Below are positions 30,111 through 44,523 of a stretch of DNA of 64,000 bases, piece by piece; positions within the stretch are counted from its first letter, which is position 1, and the number at the start of each line of letters is the position of its first letter. This DNA is from Nitrospira japonica (GTDB lineage Bacteria; Nitrospirota; Thermodesulfovibrionia; UBA6902). The translations under genes were made by a program, and so were the position numbers. The notes under the pieces were generated by a model. It had not been told where the DNA came from, made no database searches, and saw only the letters and a list, made by a program, of their open reading frames with translations. Location: assembly GCA_020723105.1 (NCBI GenBank), contig DYJL01000016.1, positions 1 to 64,000 of the forward strand, written 5' to 3'.

Positions 30111-30225
30111 AACTTAATCCATAATCCTTATCCCATAATCCTTTAATGATTAAAGGGTTGATTGGTTGGATTAGTTAACTAATAAAACAAATACGACTAA
30201 TCGAACTAATAAAACAGCCTCATTA
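30111..30225. repeat. Composite low-complexity tract
   Basis: AATCCATAATCCTTATCCC units, then ATAATCCTTTAATGATTAAA and GGTTGATTGGTTGGATTAG, then the opposite strand form ACTAATAAAACAAATACGAC and TAATAAAAC. The first 60 bases closely follow 28089-28160. No gene is seen in 30050-30278. Confidence 0.75.
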
Positions 30226-32864: not shown

Positions 32865-33600
32865 CCTTCCTCCTTGAATTCAGATCAAGGAGAAATCGTA
32901 TCAGTTTTGGTTTACTTTAAATTTTGCGGCCTATGGAATTTTGGGGGCCACGACCTATGGAATTTATTGTGCCATTGATACTTGCCAGGGAGAAGATACC
33001 GGATAAATACTGGTCGTTTGGCGGTGGAACGGCGCTCATGACGTACTACAAACATAGGGTAAGCAAGGATATAGACATATTTCTGCGAGATGTTCAATTA
33101 TTAACGCGTATCACTCCCAGACTCAACGATTTTGTTTCTGAAAAGGTAGACGATTATACAGAAATGTCCAACTATCTGAAGCTCAAAGTCGGGAAACAGG
33201 AAATTGATTTTATCGTTGCTCTCTTCTGACCAAACATCCAACCATAAAAAAAACGGTTGCCGGCTGCAAAATACCTGTTCGAGTTGAGACTCCGGAAGAA
33301 ATTATCATCAAGAAAATATTCTACAGAGCCGATTCTTTTAAAGTTCGTGATATTTTTGATATGGCAGTTGTTATCAAACACAAAGAAAATGCTCTTTGGG
33401 AAAATATGGATATTATCTCGAATAAAATGAAAACACTTAAAGCAAGAATCCCGAAACTGAATAAGGTTTACGACACTGAAATCTCTGCATTAGAAATTAT
33501 AGATAAAGAAACAGCAGAACATGCTCTGACAATCACAGGCAACTTTATAAAAAAATGTCTGGGAACATCGCAGAGTTAACCCATTAAAAGACGCTTCCCA

Positions 33601-33632
33601 GTAATCCTTAATCCATATCCCATAATCCTAAA
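33601..33632. repeat. Low-complexity tract, ATCCTTAATCCATATCCC type
   Basis: Short tract GTAATCCTTAATCCATATCC-CATAATCC just after the AbiEii remnant and before the glycosyltransferase-end duplicate. Confidence 0.7.
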
Positions 33633-33670
33633 ATAATTATTCTCGGTTTAAACGCAGACCTTTTAAAAGG

Positions 33671-33790
33671 GATGATAATAAACGAAGAGCGTTGTCTGAA
33701 AAGGCAAAAAAACGGTCCGGGGATTTTTCCTGGGACATTTGCGCTGAGAGAACTGTTGAGGAGTTGAGGAAGGCGGTTGAGTTAACATAA
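33671..33790 (+). pseudogene. Glycosyltransferase 3'-end fragment (duplicate of 27620-27722)
   Basis: Encodes DDNKRRALSEKAKKRSGDFS-WDICAERTVEELRKAVELT and a stop, nearly the same as the C-terminus of the GT4 protein ending at 27777. There is no upstream part of the gene. Here the natural end (ELT stop) is kept, whereas the copy at 27.7 kb runs into a tract. It probably travelled together with the following four-helix-bundle and ATPase genes. Confidence 0.85.
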
Positions 33791-33792
33791 CT

Positions 33793-33829
33793 GTTGGATT
33801 GGTTTCATTAGTTTTATTGGTTAGGGCTC
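33793..33829. repeat. Low-complexity tract, GGTTTTATTGGTT type (left flank of 4HB gene)
   Basis: TTGGATTGGTTTCATTAG and TTTTATTGGTTAGG units between the GT fragment and the four-helix-bundle gene. The equivalent position at the 27.7 kb locus holds a wholly different motif. Confidence 0.75.
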
Positions 33830-33851
33830 ATTAAAATTCAAGGAGGGGGAC

Positions 33852-34251
33852 ATGGGGACGATTAGACGGTTTGAGGAACTGGAGTGCTGGAAAGAGGCGA
33901 GGGAGTTTGTGAAGTTGATTTATGGAATAACCAGAAAGGAGAAATTCGGGAAAGATTTTGAATTAGTATCACGGGTCAGAAGAAGCTCGGTCTCTTCTAT
34001 GGATAATGCAGCGGAAGGGTTTCATAGAAACAGCAGTAAAGACTTTATGAAGTTCCTGGATTATTCAAGATCATCTGTTGCAGAGACTGTAAGTCATTGT
34101 TATGTGGCAGTAGACCAGAATTATATAAATGAAAATGAGATGGAGCGTGTTATTCAACAAGCCGATATGTTGGAAGAAAGTGAATAATTTTATTGCTTAT
34201 TTGAATATGCGGAGTCAAGAAGTTTTATTGGTTAAAAAATTGTTTTATTAG
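33852..34251 (+). CDS. Four-helix-bundle protein (S23/Avd-like), 3' end frameshifted
   Basis: From ATG 33852 the frame gives 111 residues: RFEELECWKEAREFVKLIYG, VSRVRRSSVSSMDNAAEGFH, then KDFMKFLDYSRSSVAETVSH. It stops at 34187, but another frame from 34180 reads VNNFIAYLNMRSQEVLL, the usual last helix, to 34251 inside the tract, so one base seems lost or gained near 34180. AGGAGGGGG precedes the start. Same family as 27854 and 36728; these proteins form pentameric basic bundles in Avd and S23 proteins and may bind RNA. Confidence 0.83.
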
Positions 34252-34262
34252 TTGAACAGTTG
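34220..34262. repeat. Low-complexity tract, GTTTTATTGGTT type (right flank of 4HB gene)
   Basis: GTTTTATTGGTTAAAAAATTG and TTTTATTAGTTGAAC units, the same motif as the left flank at 33793. It encodes the very end of the frameshifted four-helix-bundle frame. No further gene is seen up to the ATPase ribosome site at 34377. Confidence 0.75.
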
Positions 34263-34388
34263 GTGCAAATGCGATCGGGAAGATGTGCAGCAATATACAA
34301 GCAAAATGCCTAAGGTTGCCATTTGATAGTTTCTATTTACAAATGGCAGAGTTTATTGTAAAGTATAAAATATAAAAGGAGGGATGTA

Positions 34389-35636
34389 TTGCTTTTTGAA
34401 CGCACATTAACACAAGAAATTATGATGTATATTGAGGGTCCGGAAGCTATAATGATTCTTGGCTCACGACAGATTGGCAAAACCACTCTTTTGAAAATTA
34501 TTATGGAAGAGATAAGAGCTTCTAACAATGCGTTTTATCTTGATCTGGAGTATCCTCGAAATCTTGAAATTGTTGAGAAGGGTACTGAAAACCTTATTGA
34601 ATATTTATCTTCTTTAGGCGCCGACCTGAAAACAAGAAACTATATCTTTCTGGACGAAATTCATTATATGAAAAACTCTTCAAGATTCATAAAACTCAGT
34701 GTGGACCACTATGCAGATAAATTAAAGATTGTATGCACGGGCTCATCTGCATTGGGAATAAAAATGAAATTGCAGGATTCTTTTGTTGGAAGAAAATTAA
34801 TCTTTACGCTTTACCCGTTAAGTTTCAGAGAATTCCTTCTTTTCAAGGAGAAGAAAAATTTGGCTGACAATTTGCCGGTGCGTCCATATGAGCAGGAGAA
34901 AGATCTTACCCGCTTTTTTAAGGATGAGTACCACCGGTTTTTCACTGAATTTCTGATCTTCGGAGGTTATCCGAGAGTAGTTCTTGAGAATAGTTTTGAA
35001 AAAAAAGAAAAACTCCTTGGAGAAATTGTAACAGCATATATATATAAAGATATAAGAAGTCTTTTTAGTATTGGAGACATTACTAAATTTAACAACCTGA
35101 TAAAAATTCTTGCAAATCAGGCGGGGTGTCTTATTAATACTTCTGAAATTTCACGGGCTGTCGGAATATCGAGACCAACAGTGTTGAACTATATCTCGAT
35201 ACTAGAAAATTCTTTTCTCATAGCCCTATTGCCGCCTTATTCTAAAAATTTGCGTATTGAGATTCGCAAGTCTAATAAAATCTATTGGCTTGATAATGGA
35301 TTGCGCAATTACCTTATCAGCGATCTGAGCCCCTCGCTTTCGAGAACAGATATCGGCGTTCTCCTTGAAAATGTGATGTTCACAGGTCTTGTGAAAAGAA
35401 AGAAGGAGATAGAAAATCTTTTTTACTGGCGTACAAAAGATAAAACCGAGATAGATTTTGTTTATAAGAGTGACAACAGGATAATTCCAATCGAAGTTAA
35501 AACCCGGTCCCGTCCGCATCGCGGACTTGTAAATTTTATGAAAAAATATAATATTGAAAAAGGTTATATCGCACACATTGGTGATTTTGAGAAAAAAAAT
35601 AATATTTCATTCATCCCCGGTTATTGGCTTGCTTGA
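34389..35636 (+). CDS. AAA ATPase with DUF4143
   Basis: A 415-residue ATPase similar in layout to the one at 4254: Walker A GSRQIGKTT at 25-33, Walker B YIFLDEIHYM, VCTGSSALGI, GGYPRVVLEN, YWLDNGLRNYL, and a C-terminal EIDFVYK...IPIEVKT nuclease-like block. TTG 34389 is set by AGGAGGG at 34377-34383. It follows the four-helix-bundle gene, as the ATPase at 28270 does at the other locus. Confidence 0.85.
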   Translation: MLFERTLTQEIMMYIEGPEAIMILGSRQIGKTTLLKIIMEEIRASNNAFYLDLEYPRNLEIVEKGTENLIEYLSSLGADLKTRNYIFLDEIHYMKNSSRFIKLSVDHYADKLKIVCTGSSALGIKMKLQDSFVGRKLIFTLYPLSFREFLLFKEKKNLADNLPVRPYEQEKDLTRFFKDEYHRFFTEFLIFGGYPRVVLENSFEKKEKLLGEIVTAYIYKDIRSLFSIGDITKFNNLIKILANQAGCLINTSEISRAVGISRPTVLNYISILENSFLIALLPPYSKNLRIEIRKSNKIYWLDNGLRNYLISDLSPSLSRTDIGVLLENVMFTGLVKRKKEIENLFYWRTKDKTEIDFVYKSDNRIIPIEVKTRSRPHRGLVNFMKKYNIEKGYIAHIGDFEKKNNISFIPGYWLA

Positions 35637-35640
35637 CAAA

Positions 35641-35690
35641 ACTTTTATTGTTAACAAATAAAACTAATAAAACCAATAAAACGGTTTAAT
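35641..35690. repeat. Low-complexity tract, AACCAATAAAACC type
   Basis: TAACAAATAAAACTAATAAA and ACCAATAAAACGG units: the reverse complement of the GGTTTTATTGGTT motif that flanks the four-helix-bundle gene of this locus. The tracts on either side of the ATPase are therefore inverted relative to each other. Confidence 0.8.
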
Positions 35691-35698
35691 TTTTATAA

Positions 35699-36685
35699 AT
35701 GAATTCAATTGTTATTGTTGATAAATTAGAGTCAGGAGAGGACTTGCGCTCTCTGACAAGACAATTCGCTCATACGTTTAGACAATTATCCGTTGATGAT
35801 AATTTCAAGAAAGCGAATGCTGTTTTTATTAAACCGAACCTTACCTATCCGGTTTATAAAAAAGGTGTCACAACCCGGAAAGAGGTTATCGAGGGGCTTG
35901 TCACGGCTTTGAGAGAGATAAACAGCACAACGATGATCTATATCGGTGAAGGCGAGGGAGGCTATAACAGTTTTTCAATGACTGCTGCTTTTGAAAATAT
36001 GGGCTTTTTTGAACTTGAAAAAGAATTTCCTAATGTAAAAATAGTTAACCTTTCTAAACTGCTTTCAAAAGAGATTGAAATAGAAACACCGAGAGGTCCT
36101 TACAAGATCGCTTTGCCGGCAATATTTTTCAATGAGATTGATTTTTCGATCAGTTGTCCTGTTCCGAAAGTGCATTGCATGACAGGCATTACGCTTTCGT
36201 ACAAAAACCAGTGGGGGTGTCTCCCGGATACTATGAGATTAAAAAATCATTATATGTTCGATTATATTATCTCGAAAATCTCAGACATTCTTAAATTCAG
36301 GTATGCTTTTTTGGATGGAAAATATGGACTAACGAACAATGGACCGATGGTTGGTGACCCGGTTGAGGTTAACTGGTTCGCCGCGTCGAATTCTCTTGGG
36401 GCATTTGACAGTGTTGTTTCAGAAATGATGGGCTTTGACTGGAAAAAAATCAGCCATCTGAAAATGGCAGGGGAATATGGATTCATTCCGAAAAGAGAAG
36501 ATATAAGAATTATAGGAGACATTGAATTGCTGAAAAGGAAATTTACCCTTAAACGGAGCTTCTGGAATTATCCGGCGCTGGCGGCATTTCAGTCAAAAAA
36601 ATTAACTCATCTGGTTTACTTTTCAAGATGGGCAAAAATCCTTCACGATATAATGTATACTTTCAGGAAAAAACCGATTGAATGA
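35699..36685 (+). CDS. DUF362 domain protein
   Basis: A 328-residue protein of the DUF362 family: VFIKPNLTYPVYKKGVTTRK, MIYIGEGEGGYNSFS, ISCPVPKVHCMTGITLSYKN-QWG and DGKYGLTNNGPMVGDPVEVN. These proteins often carry a ferredoxin-type domain, which is absent here. In polysaccharide clusters they are found next to dehydrogenase/heparinase-type genes, but the reaction is unknown. Confidence 0.82.
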   Translation: MNSIVIVDKLESGEDLRSLTRQFAHTFRQLSVDDNFKKANAVFIKPNLTYPVYKKGVTTRKEVIEGLVTALREINSTTMIYIGEGEGGYNSFSMTAAFENMGFFELEKEFPNVKIVNLSKLLSKEIEIETPRGPYKIALPAIFFNEIDFSISCPVPKVHCMTGITLSYKNQWGCLPDTMRLKNHYMFDYIISKISDILKFRYAFLDGKYGLTNNGPMVGDPVEVNWFAASNSLGAFDSVVSEMMGFDWKKISHLKMAGEYGFIPKREDIRIIGDIELLKRKFTLKRSFWNYPALAAFQSKKLTHLVYFSRWAKILHDIMYTFRKKPIE

Positions 36686-36727
36686 TTTAGGAATTCAGAG
36701 ATTTAGGAATTTAGGAATTTAGGGATT
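36682..36727. repeat. Low-complexity tract, TTTAGGAATT type (left flank of 4HB gene)
   Basis: GATTTAGGAATTCAGAG, ATTTAGGAATTTAGGAATTT units between the DUF362 gene and the four-helix-bundle gene, right up to the ATG. Confidence 0.8.
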
Positions 36728-37099
36728 ATGAATTATAAAAAATTTGAGGAATTGCCGTGCTGGCAGAAAGCAAGAGAATTGTGTAAGGCTGTGTATGAGA
36801 TGATAATTAAGAGCAGACTTGGAAAAGATTACAGCTTAAGGGATCAAATATGGAAGTCTGCCGGTTCAGTTATGGATAACATCAGCGAAGGCTTTGATGA
36901 TGGAAGCAGAAAAGAATTTATTAAATTTTTAGGCTATGCTCAACGGTCGTGTGGTGAAGTGCAATCCCAATTATATAGGTCTTTAGATTGTGGACATATT
37001 GTTGAATTGGAATTTAATAAAGTGTATGAGCTTGCAAGTGATTGTAGGCGGCAGATTAAGGGATTTCGAAAATATTTAAGAAATTATAAAAGGGATTAA
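36728..37099 (+). CDS. Four-helix-bundle protein (S23/Avd-like)
   Basis: A complete 123-residue member: KFEELPCWQKARELCKAVYE, LRDQIWKSAGSVMDNISEGF, KEFIKFLGYAQRSCGEVQSQ, LYRSLDCG and a final helix RRQIKGFRKYLRNYKRD. It is the only undamaged copy in the window. The stop codon lies in AGGGATTAAGGGA, the first unit of the downstream tract; the truncated copy at 27854 ends at the same GGATTAAGGGA. A ribosome site is not obvious because the left tract reaches the ATG. Confidence 0.88.
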   Translation: MNYKKFEELPCWQKARELCKAVYEMIIKSRLGKDYSLRDQIWKSAGSVMDNISEGFDDGSRKEFIKFLGYAQRSCGEVQSQLYRSLDCGHIVELEFNKVYELASDCRRQIKGFRKYLRNYKRD

Positions 37100-37201
37100 G
37101 GGACTGTGAATTTAGGAATTAAGGGATTCAGGAATTACGAATTTTGGGATTGTTTTTTTAATTCCTTAATTCTTGAATTCTGAAATTCCTGAATTTCTTT
37201 A
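37093..37201. repeat. Inverted low-complexity tract (right flank of 4HB gene)
   Basis: GAATTTAGGAATTAAGGG and ATTCAGGAATTACG units are followed, after a T-rich spacer at about 37149-37158, by the complement AATTCCTTAATTCTTGAATT and CTGAAATTCCTGAATTT. The two arms can form a long imperfect hairpin, which may also serve as a terminator. Confidence 0.82.
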
Positions 37202-37205
37202 GATT

Positions 37206-39428
37206 ATGAAACAAATTATTCAAAACTATCGCACGGGAAAGCTTGATCTGGCAGAGGTGCCTGTCCCTGTCTGTTCATCAAATAAAATTCTGGTGAAAAA
37301 TATGGCTTCCCTTATCAGTATAGGTACAGAGCGCTCAATTATTGAATTGGGGCAGAAGAGCCTGCTTGGCAAAGCAAAGGCGCGGCCTGATTTAGTTAAA
37401 AGATTTTTGGAAAAGGCCAGGAAGGAAGGTATTCTTAAGACCTTTAATGAAGCGCTCGGCAGGCTTGATAATCCTACTCCTCTTGGATACAGTTCTGCCG
37501 GAGTTGTTATTGAAGCCGGCAATAATGTCCATAAATTTTCTCCCGGCGACAGGGTGGCCTGCATCGGAGCGGGCTATGCCGCTCATGCTGAATATATAAC
37601 GGTCCCGGAAAATCTGTGCTGCAAGATACCTGACGATCTTTCCTTCGAAGAGGCGTCTTTTGGAATGCTCGGCATAATAGCGCTCCATGGAATAAGATGC
37701 GCCAGGCTTACATTTGGAGAATCAGTTGCCGTGATCGGGCTGGGGTTGTTGGGACTGCTTTCAGTTCAAATACTTAAGGCATATGGATGCAAAGTTGCCG
37801 GGATGGATATTGATCCCTCCAAAGTAGAGCTTGCAAAGACGCTGGGAGCAGATTTGGCATTTACTTCCATCGAGGAATTTAAAAACGGCACAGAACGCTT
37901 TACGAACGGTTATGGCGCCGATGCAGTGATAATTACGGCGGCTGCAAAAAGTGATGCCCCGGTGAATACGGCTGTAGAGATCGCCCGATATGGGGGCCGG
38001 ATCGTCCTGGTGGGCGTCGCTGATATTCATCCCCAAAGAAACGAGATGTGGCATAAAGAAGTTGAGATCATTGTATCAAAGGCGGGCGGCCCCGGCACTT
38101 TTGACCCTTTTTATGAAAATAAAGGAATAGACTATCCCATCGGATATATAAGGTGGACTGAGAACAGGAATCTTGAAGAGTTCTTAAGCCTGGCAGCAGA
38201 AAAAAAGGTTAATGTGCGGGATCTGATCTCTCATAAGTTCCCAATAGAACAGGCTAAGACAGTATACGGTGATATGCTTGAGGGCAGGGGCGGACCGTAT
38301 ACAGGGGTGGTTTTGGAATATCCTGAAGACAATAAAGATGTTGGATTGGTTAGATTGGTTGAATTAGTTAAAACCAATAAAACCAATAAAACTAATCCAA
38401 CCAATAGAACCAATTTAACCAATAAAACAATCTCTGTTGGCGTTATCGGCGCCGGTCTTTTTGGAAAGGCCCTGCTACTGCCTGCATTGAAAAACATTAA
38501 AGATATAAATCTGCATACCCTTTCAACCTCGTCAAGCGCAAACACATATCATACGGCAAAAAAGTATGGGTTTGAAAATTGTACTACAGATTATAACGAG
38601 TTGCTTTGCAATGAAGAAATAAACTCGGTAATAGCGCTTACTCCTCACAGCCTTCACGCCAAAATGGTGAAAGAAGCTTTAAAGGCCGGGAAGCATGTTT
38701 TTGTTGAAAAACCCCTTTGTATCAATGAAGAAGAGTTGAAAGAGATTACGGATGTTTACTTACCCCTTACCCCTTACCCCTTACCCCCTGTTTTAATGGT
38801 CGGTTATAACAGAAGGTTTTCTCCCCATGCTATAAAGGTTAAAGAGTATCTGGAGAACAGGCAGGAGCCATTGGTAATTACATACAGGATCAACGCGGGT
38901 TTTGTTCCTGCTGGCCACTGGGTGCATTCCGGGGAAGAGGGTGGCAGCAGGATCATCGGCGAGGTCTGCCATTTTGTTGATATGCTGCAGTTTCTGACAA
39001 AGAGCAATCCTGTCCGTGTTTATGCTGAACGCATATCGGGCACTAACAGAACGGCCTTAAACAGCGATAATGTGATAATTACGATCAAGTTTGAGGATGG
39101 TTCAGTCGGCAATATAATATATTCAGCATCAGGAGATAAGGCGTATTCCAGAGAGCAGATCGAGATCTTTTCTGAAGGTAAAACAATTGTTATTAAGGAT
39201 TACAAAGAAACCAACTTTCATTCTTCAGGAAGAAAGAAGACTTTTAAAACAATGAACCAGGAAATGGGTTACAGGGAAGAATTACAGCATTTCTTTGATG
39301 TGATACGCGGGAAAAGCGGTATGAACCTGTCTCCGGAAGAAATATTCTGTTCCACATTAACAGTTTTCAGGATAAATGATTCACTTTTTTCCGGAGAACC
39401 CCGGTCCCTGTCCATGAATAATGTATGA
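37206..39428 (+). CDS. Two-domain oxidoreductase (zinc-dehydrogenase-like plus Gfo/Idh/MocA)
   Basis: A 740-residue fusion. Residues 1 to about 370 are a medium-chain dehydrogenase (TPLGYSSAGVVIEAGNNVHK, VAVIGLGLLGLLSVQIL-KAYG nucleotide fold). Residues about 405-740 are a Gfo/Idh/MocA oxidoreductase (VGVIGAGLFGKALLLPALKN, GKHVFVEKPL with the catalytic lysine, GGSRIIGEVCHFVDMLQF). Such fusions are known from capsule and sulfated-glycan clusters and act on sugar or uronate substrates. Unusually, the linker (about residues 378-408) and a loop near residue 518-529 are encoded by low-complexity tracts of the intergenic types. Confidence 0.85.
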   Translation: MKQIIQNYRTGKLDLAEVPVPVCSSNKILVKNMASLISIGTERSIIELGQKSLLGKAKARPDLVKRFLEKARKEGILKTFNEALGRLDNPTPLGYSSAGVVIEAGNNVHKFSPGDRVACIGAGYAAHAEYITVPENLCCKIPDDLSFEEASFGMLGIIALHGIRCARLTFGESVAVIGLGLLGLLSVQILKAYGCKVAGMDIDPSKVELAKTLGADLAFTSIEEFKNGTERFTNGYGADAVIITAAAKSDAPVNTAVEIARYGGRIVLVGVADIHPQRNEMWHKEVEIIVSKAGGPGTFDPFYENKGIDYPIGYIRWTENRNLEEFLSLAAEKKVNVRDLISHKFPIEQAKTVYGDMLEGRGGPYTGVVLEYPEDNKDVGLVRLVELVKTNKTNKTNPTNRTNLTNKTISVGVIGAGLFGKALLLPALKNIKDINLHTLSTSSSANTYHTAKKYGFENCTTDYNELLCNEEINSVIALTPHSLHAKMVKEALKAGKHVFVEKPLCINEEELKEITDVYLPLTPYPLPPVLMVGYNRRFSPHAIKVKEYLENRQEPLVITYRINAGFVPAGHWVHSGEEGGSRIIGEVCHFVDMLQFLTKSNPVRVYAERISGTNRTALNSDNVIITIKFEDGSVGNIIYSASGDKAYSREQIEIFSEGKTIVIKDYKETNFHSSGRKKTFKTMNQEMGYREELQHFFDVIRGKSGMNLSPEEIFCSTLTVFRINDSLFSGEPRSLSMNNV
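38339..38431. repeat. Tract inside the oxidoreductase gene encoding the interdomain linker
   Basis: GTTGGATTGGTTAGATTGGT units followed by the opposite strand form AAAACCAATAAAACCAATAA. The inverted halves can pair. In frame it codes for a Lys-Thr-Asn-rich linker. Same motif as the tracts at 33.8-35.7 kb. Confidence 0.85.
38757..38791. repeat. Second tract inside the oxidoreductase gene
   Basis: TTACCCCTTACCCCTTACCCC units within the Gfo/Idh/MocA part, coding for VYLPLTPYPLPPV between the EKPLCINEEELKEI helix and the strand VLMVGYNRRF. This belongs to the pyrimidine-rich tract type. Confidence 0.8.
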
Positions 39429-40636
39429 ATATTGTTTTGATCACAGACTCTTATCCTCCTGAAATCCGCTCAGCATCCCATCTGATGCAGGAAATGGCTG
39501 AAGAGCTGAGAAACAGAGGGCATAAGATCACCGTACTGACTTCATATCCGCAATATAATCTCGCTGATGATTTTGCCGGCCGGCAGTTTGAAGAACATTC
39601 TTTTGAAAATGATATTGAAGTGATACGCATTAGAACACTTCCTCATCATAAAGTCAATTTTATTGTCAGAGGGATTTCTCAACTGACTATGCCAAACCTT
39701 TTTTTTTATAAATTTAAAAAATACTGCAGGAAAAAACCGGATATTGTTCTTGTCTACAGCCCGCCCCTCCCGCTCGCAATAGCGGGAAAAAAGATCAAGG
39801 AAAAATACAGGGCGAAATTCATTCTCAATATCCAGGATATATTCCCGCAAAACGCGGTCGATCTCGGGGTACTGAAGAGCACAGCCTTAATAAGTTTTTT
39901 TGAGCGGATCGAAAAGGCCGTATACAAAAGCGCTGATGTCATTACAGCTCATTCAGAGGGGAATCAGGACTTTCTGACCGGAACAAAAAAGGTGCCTTCC
40001 TGTAAAGTCTTTACGTTACACAACTGGGTTGACGTAAGTTTGTTTTCAGGCCTGAACGGAAACGGCAAATACAGAAAGGACTTTGGCCTCGAAAATAAAT
40101 TTGTTTTCCTGTTTGCAGGAGTTATCGGGCCTTCACAGAATCTGGACTTGATCATTGAAGCAGCAAACAGGCTGAAAGACTACAGCGAAATTTGTTTCCT
40201 GTTTGTAGGTGACGGTACGGAAAAAGAAAAATTAAAGAGGATGAAGGAAGCCTACGGATTAAAGAATATTATTTTTCAACCATTCGTATCAAAGGAAGCT
40301 TATCCCCGGCTTGTAAGAGATTCAGATGTTGGATTAATATGCCTCAGCAGTATGAATAAGACCCCGGTTGTCCCCGGTAAGCTCCTGGGATATATGGCGG
40401 CCGGGATCCCCGTGGTCGCCTTTCTCAACAGGGAGAGTGACGGGCATGACATTATCAAAAAAGCTGAATGCGGATATTCTGCGTTTTCCGATGATATTGA
40501 GAATATGAAAAACATAATCCTGCAAATATATAAAGAAAAAAACAGCCTGTCCCGATACGGGGAAAACGGGTTTAACTACGTGACGAAGCATTTCGACAGG
40601 AAAGTCTGTATTGATACTTTAGAAAAATTATTTTAG
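39425..40636 (+). CDS. Glycosyltransferase family 4 (WcaI/WbuB-like)
   Basis: A 403-residue GT-B protein: MNIVLITDSYPPEIRSASHL at the N-terminus, FAGVIGPSQNLDLIIEAANR at the donor domain and YPRLVRDSDVGLICLS then GKLLGYMAAGIPVVAF near the end. The start overlaps the oxidoreductase stop by four bases. Probably adds an N-acetylhexosamine-type sugar; linkage unknown. Confidence 0.87.
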   Translation: MNIVLITDSYPPEIRSASHLMQEMAEELRNRGHKITVLTSYPQYNLADDFAGRQFEEHSFENDIEVIRIRTLPHHKVNFIVRGISQLTMPNLFFYKFKKYCRKKPDIVLVYSPPLPLAIAGKKIKEKYRAKFILNIQDIFPQNAVDLGVLKSTALISFFERIEKAVYKSADVITAHSEGNQDFLTGTKKVPSCKVFTLHNWVDVSLFSGLNGNGKYRKDFGLENKFVFLFAGVIGPSQNLDLIIEAANRLKDYSEICFLFVGDGTEKEKLKRMKEAYGLKNIIFQPFVSKEAYPRLVRDSDVGLICLSSMNKTPVVPGKLLGYMAAGIPVVAFLNRESDGHDIIKKAECGYSAFSDDIENMKNIILQIYKEKNSLSRYGENGFNYVTKHFDRKVCIDTLEKLF

Positions 40637-44184: not shown

Positions 44185-44523
44185 ACAATATGCTACCTAC
44201 ATTTTGTGTATTTTGCAAGTTAAACTTTCAAATTACATGTATTTATTGGTTGATAAAAAACTGTTTTATTGGTTTGATTAGTTGAATTGGTTGAACCTGA
44301 AAAACCTCTCCAAACTGCCGCAGTTGTTTAGAAAATAACTGTGGCATATCGTAGAAAAAATAAAAAAAGAAGTTTGATAAATTTATCTTCAGAATGTTGG
44401 GGACATACTACATTTTAAGGGGACAAAGGGGACATTGAAGAATGAAGTCAGCTCCATACTCTGCCTCGATAACGATAAACTTGGTTTTATTGGTTGGGTT
44501 GATTTAATATGTTACAATAGCTC
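44185..44523. repeat. Intergenic region with tracts and direct repeat
   Basis: A TTTATTGGTTGATAAAAAAC and GTTTTATTGGTTTGATTAG tract lies at 44239-44295. It is followed directly by the second copy of the 29-base repeat (44297-44325). GGGGACATACTACATTTTAA and GGGGACAAAGGGGACATTG units lie at about 44399-44438, and a GGTTTTATTGGTTGGG tract at 44482-44503. No gene seen. Confidence 0.7.

Follow-up and report, generated by a model that had tools for sequence, protein, structure and literature searches.

A gene for a two-domain oxidoreductase carries two tandem-repeat tracts within its reading frame, one encoding the linker between the domains and the other a loop of the second domain. The linker tract has probably arisen through the in-frame insertion of a dispersed hairpin repeat into an enzyme that was already fused, or through overwriting of its linker by such a repeat, and the loop tract would then be an independent second event. 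The gene lies in a stretch of DNA of 64,000 nucleotides, referred to here as the window.

Two repeat tracts in one reading frame

The frame at 37206-39428 is single and free of stops over its full length in the list of open reading frames (ORFs), and both tracts keep it open, as the initial annotation had held. According to Pfam, the 740-aa product combines a zinc-type ADH domain (ADH_zinc_N, residues 182-299) with a GFO/IDH/MocA domain (GFO_IDH_MocA, from residue 409). The presence of both domains in one ORF and its end-to-end alignment with fused orthologues place it among the bi-domain oxidoreductases. Both tracts, which had earlier been set at 38339-38791, were found, and their limits were refined to 38340-38428 for the linker (residues 379-408, an inverted repeat with a 9-bp unit) and 38755-38792 for the loop (residues 517-529, heptamer TTACCCC).

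Tandem Repeats Finder (TRF) reported an array of period 9 in the linker (38369-38428, 6.7 copies, score 78) and one of period 7 in the loop (38759-38787, 4.1 copies, 100% match, score 58). The arms of the linker tract, ATTGGTTAGATTGGTTGAATTAGTT and AACTAATCCAACCAATAGAACCAAT, are complementary over 25 positions apart from a few mismatches, a degree of pairing matched by none of 60 shuffles, and the RNA fold of the tract reaches -29.5 kcal/mol (z = -7.5). The heptamer loop tract is one-armed. A search for known structured RNAs returned no Rfam family in 33000-40000. Chance low complexity was ruled out as a source of the tracts by these shuffles and by a first-order Markov simulation matched to 291 kb of the source genome, which yielded no TRF array at the score cut-off of 45, compared with 42 arrays scoring at least 45 in the real sequence.

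An AlphaFold model of the protein was built on 22 sequences and has a mean pLDDT of 83.9. Only residues 376-405, which correspond to the linker tract, fall below a pLDDT of 50 over a long stretch, and in the model they follow the last ADH strand (367-371) and precede the first Rossmann strand (409-414). The linker encoded by the tract is predicted from this model to be disordered. The loop tract forms the end of helix 508-521 and the loop that precedes strand 530-532. Pfam and the model together bear out the earlier placement of the inverted tract between the dehydrogenase and Gfo/Idh/MocA domains, and the model agrees with the assignment of the second tract to a loop of the second domain.

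Table 1. Location of the oxidoreductase gene, its tracts and related features (window positions unless a locus identifier is given)
Feature	Location	Strand	Evidence or remark
Two-domain oxidoreductase gene, 740 aa	37206..39428	+	ORF, Pfam, fused orthologues, structure model
Linker tract, left arm, three ATTGGTTNN-type units, peptide VGLVRLVELV	38340..38369	+	Lag-9 tract; inverted relative to right arm
Linker tract, right arm, six AACCAATNN-type units, peptide KTNKTNKTNPTNRTNLTNKT	38370..38428	+	TRF period 9; family matches at 38372, 38381, 38399
TTACCCC heptamer tract, helix-strand loop of second domain, peptide VYLPLTPYPLPPV	38755..38792	+	TRF period 7; other genome copies; model loop
GGGATTA / TAATTCC hairpin tract	37090-37211		Between IVP gene and oxidoreductase gene; G-rich arm first again
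Intergenic two-armed copy, 9-bp family	30161..30210
Intergenic one-armed copy, 9-bp family	33798..33822		30 bp upstream of 23S_rRNA_IVP gene
Intergenic one-armed copy, 9-bp family	35653..35677
Intergenic one-armed copy, 9-bp family	44268..44292
23S_rRNA_IVP genes	33852-34187, 36728-37099; L160:13239-13649; L161:7159-7533; L162:8902-9291
Heptamer tracts as N-terminal or signal-peptide-like region (FlgH, FlgI, ATP synthase b subunit, other apparently exported proteins)	L072:14386-16393, L163:6325-6909, L161:2902-4893, L070:2818-3483
Cobalamin cluster, in-frame heptamer tracts at loops	L157 (source genome C94:65000-84999), L215-L219		Common loops, differing units
Orthologue tracts, Thermodesulfovibrionales, linker and/or loop	L031		Units AGGTGAT (inverted), AACTTAT
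Orthologue tracts, WOR-1, linker and/or loop	L043		Units GGTCTTG, AGACAGC
Orthologue tracts, Aminicenantota, linker and/or loop	L044		18-bp unit; CCAATAA
Orthologue tracts, Desulfobacteraceae	L050		Linker: degenerate tracts, below detection threshold; loop: ACACAGACAG tract

Age of the fusion and reuse of the same sites

Among 396 genomes drawn from across the phylum, 70 contain a full-length fused orthologue, and the fused protein also occurs in MAGs of about ten phyla, including Pseudomonadota, Elusimicrobiota, Acidobacteriota, Planctomycetota and Aminicenantota. Each of the 53 orthologues in the comparison has the fused form. Because fused forms that lack the tract occur across these phyla, the fusion is, on sequence comparison, much older than the linker tract. 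The Lys-Thr-Asn (KTN) repeat linker, whose recurrence in homologues that lack nearby tracts had been named in advance as evidence against the initial annotation, is present in none of the 53.

In an alignment of 54 sequences, with the linker measured from the end of ADH to the (V/I)GVIGAG motif, most sequences have a tract-free linker of 23 residues, whereas this gene has 37 and the other tract-bearing sequences have 31-42. A net gain of 14 residues set against a tract span of about 30 means that some 16 residues of the ancestral linker have disappeared or been overwritten, and so simple insertion is insufficient; judged from these lengths, the tract both lengthened and overwrote a pre-existing linker. 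The tract-bearing loop has 15 residues, compared with 12-16 in near relatives, and since its length is barely altered the loop tract replaced sequence more than it added.

Orthologues from four further lineages carry tracts with different units in the linker, the loop or both (Table 1). Inverted tracts occupy this linker in the Thermodesulfovibrionales and Aminicenantota orthologues as well, and two additional in-frame tracts fall in the ADH domain of the Thermodesulfovibrionales and Desulfobacteraceae proteins. Mapped on a protein tree, in which the linker was not explicitly masked and sparsely filled columns were dropped, the tract trait requires five changes, at least four of them forced by well-supported branches. 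In the Thermodesulfovibrionales genome the unit was found again in a second inverted element. The WOR-1 unit was found nowhere else in the WOR-1 genome outside this gene, and therefore local amplification also happens.

Repeat families in the genome and its congeners

The linker tract belongs to a family with the architecture (ATTGGTTNN)n-spacer-(AACCAATNN)n, in which positions 8-9 of the unit are variable. Allowing one mismatch, the pattern AACCAATAAAACCAAT matches the source genome at 19 places, G005 at 27 and G008 at 19, and the remaining seven of the nine congeners have no match; the reversed pattern, used as a control, gave 0-1 matches. There is no exact copy of GGATTGGTTGGATTGGTT in the source genome because unit positions 8-9 vary. 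In all 17 distinct two-armed copies the minus-arm precedes the plus-arm, a uniformity that would not be expected from chance or plain slippage. The family is almost purely intergenic, the copy in the oxidoreductase gene being the one clear exception and a weak ORF of 141 aa the only other candidate. One intergenic locus is retained by each of the ten genomes of the genus (L228-L237), with a different short palindrome in almost every congener. Here the source species has an element of about 78 bp and G004 only a few bases, and in other congeners the gap between the two conserved genes holds an unrelated GTAGGGGCGACCC or TCATTCCCG palindrome, a heptamer hairpin or a small ORF. As the content of this conserved locus varies, the gain and exchange of elements must keep pace with the divergence of species.

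Lag 7 gives the strongest signal, with 27.0 per 10 kb in intergenic and 9.0 in coding DNA, compared with 0-8.3 in intergenic DNA for the other lags from 3 to 13; period 7 is thus over-represented and mainly intergenic, as in the heptanucleotide tandem repeats of other bacteria. Gene calls were ORF-based, and the genomes compared include MAG assemblies. In an unbiased subset of 346 kb, 14 heptamer tracts lie in 11 of the 246 ORFs with a length of 150 aa or more, or about 4-5% of genes. Across the roughly 650 kb of genome sampled, which is partly biased as some portions were chosen around known tract matches, a 7- or 9-bp tract occurs in 36 of 477 ORFs, and 17 of 53 in-gene tracts begin no further in than residue 45. 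Within genes, units free of stops only in the sense direction outnumber those free of stops only in antisense by 26 to 1, a bias that marks a coding filter and is absent from intergenic tracts (8 to 9). The heptamer classes used by 83 tracts number 48, where 79 would be expected.

The cobalamin biosynthesis cluster of six congeners has 29 tract sites in ten genes, and 23 of these sites bear tracts in at least two species. Pairs of species at one site have a common unit in 25 of 114 cases and differing units in 89 of 114, compared with 3.3% common units in random pairs. Since sites are common to species and units mostly differ, the sites persist and the repeats turn over. In CobD and CobH the tract corresponds to extra or divergent loop sequence relative to solved homologues.

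At the N-terminal end of proteins, the tract in FlgI and FlgH makes up the stretch ahead of the mature part, the place expected for a signal peptide, and the N-terminus of the ATP synthase b subunit is formed by a tract. Free-standing four-helix 23S_rRNA_IVP (PF05635) genes also stand among the tracts: five of six have a tract at most 150 bp away (controls, 104 of 538), and three of six have tracts on both sides (controls, 13 of 538; relatives, 11 of 24).

The dispersed genomic copies agree with the original description of both tracts as being of intergenic types. Furthermore, the orthologues, the congener genes and the structure model uphold the view that such tracts reach coding DNA and are tolerated at domain borders and loops. 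The entry of repeat tracts into coding DNA holds more broadly than was first claimed, at linkers, loops and N-termini.

Origin of the tracts and comparison with known systems

In the explanation that we consider probable, a copy of the (ATTGGTTNN)n-spacer-(AACCAATNN)n element entered the weakly constrained linker of the pre-fused enzyme, either inserting into it or overwriting it. Such a copy would have survived because its length preserved the frame and its units read in a stop-free frame; it would now encode a disordered hinge, and we infer that the insert is neutral for the enzyme. The TTACCCC loop tract would represent a separate and independent event of like kind, drawn from another repeat family. 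A repeat could have reached its new site by being copied or mobilised, through template switching mediated by the hairpin, or by slippage that began at a short seed, after which slippage would remodel the tract and selection would retain only in-frame, stop-free cases at permissive positions. Neither a target-site duplication nor a mobilising enzyme was found, and both results count against this explanation, as do the modest gain in linker length, the nearly unchanged loop length and the confinement of the WOR-1 unit to its gene, a pattern suggestive of local amplification in WOR-1.

The main rival, which we regard as somewhat unlikely, is pure local slippage, whereby the unconstrained linker and loop grew repeats through polymerase slippage without any dispersing element. 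It has been proposed for long simple repeats in bacteria that heptamers are favoured as 7 nt may equal the polymerase contact length. Slippage accounts for the dominance of period 7, which is shared with other bacteria (PMC4679880, PMC4692102), and for the turnover of units at one site in the cobalamin cluster, and the unique WOR-1 unit fits it well. However, it does not account for the uniformly oriented two-armed 9-bp family, whose unit and fixed arm order recur at 17 sites, nor for the small number of heptamer classes, and slippage alone yields no inverted arms.

A functional mRNA hairpin, for example one that slows the ribosome at the domain border to aid folding, appears improbable. The strong RNA fold lies precisely at that border and inverted tracts recur in the linker of two other lineages, but most orthologues have a short linker free of tracts, the same elements are intergenic elsewhere, and the loop tract has a single arm. 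An assembly or consensus artefact is very improbable: although the draft genome consists of 94 contigs and low-complexity tracts are prone to misassembly, the frame is kept through both tracts, and tracts occupy the same sites in genomes that were assembled separately and the same loops in six congeners. Least credible is the suggestion of the initial annotation that the tract fused two separate genes by taking the place of the intergenic space, which the position exactly between the domains seemed to favour and which the tract-free fused orthologues of about ten phyla, with 53 of 53 fused, refute.

Beyond the insertion or overwriting of a dispersed repeat in one enzyme, a bolder proposal, which we consider unlikely at present, is that many phyla harbour a widespread and so far undescribed class of short hairpin-forming tandem elements, whose members repeatedly displace one another at fixed positions that tolerate them, namely linkers, loops, signal peptides and gene ends. 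The site would stay and the unit be exchanged through a dedicated copying process, possibly tied to the free-standing genes of the 23S_rRNA_IVP type among the tracts, and the class would be a continuing source of new protein segments. If the favoured account is true, this lineage routinely draws on simple 7- and 9-bp repeats to build linkers, surface loops and signal peptides, and the origin of hypervariable protein segments could be traced site by site among related species. Moreover, peptides such as LTPYPLPL and NSKFKIQNSK in MAG proteins would be repeats at the DNA level and not domains.

Rickettsia palindromic elements (RPEs) are longer elements of defined sequence and do not consist of 7- or 9-bp units in tandem. 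Like the tracts described here, they are short dispersed palindromes that also occur in frame within protein genes and are translated, and an in-frame RPE has been reported (PMC5656822). The 9-bp family resembles them in its dispersed copies of a common sequence (19 pattern matches in the source genome) and in its palindromic hairpin architecture (17 two-armed copies and the fold of the linker copy), whereas translation inside several genes was found for the heptamer tracts and not for the 9-bp family. In contrast to RPEs, a given site here has different unit families in different species, and the host lineage is unrelated to Rickettsia.

Heptamers are the commonest repeat class in many bacterial genomes, with GGGAATC in Xanthomonas, GGGGA(T/C)T in Nostoc and TAACTGA in Beggiatoaceae as examples (PMC4692102, PMC4679880). 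These repeats likewise form dispersed, degenerate 7-bp tandem arrays that are mostly intergenic and sometimes inverted. However, one or a few units per genome, chiefly intergenic, have been described, whereas here dozens of units coexist, lie in frame in conserved enzymes and are accompanied by a 9-bp hairpin family. In Geobacter metallireducens, a 4 x 7-bp element with the unit GGGACCG occurs 49 times, both inside genes and between them, and some genes have several copies; the accessible part of that report describes a single consensus unit proposed as a regulatory RNA element, without an analysis of in-frame linkers or loops (PMC2700814). Mitochondrial protein genes of Nematomorpha also hold inverted repeats (PMC6649704), which the accessible part of the source presents as long, perfect inverted repeats in animal mitochondria and not as tandem 7- or 9-bp units. 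As far as the literature searched shows, three findings are new: the same protein sites have been occupied time and again in different phyla, units turn over at sites that stay fixed, and a 9-bp hairpin family specific to the lineage has one copy that is clearly coding.
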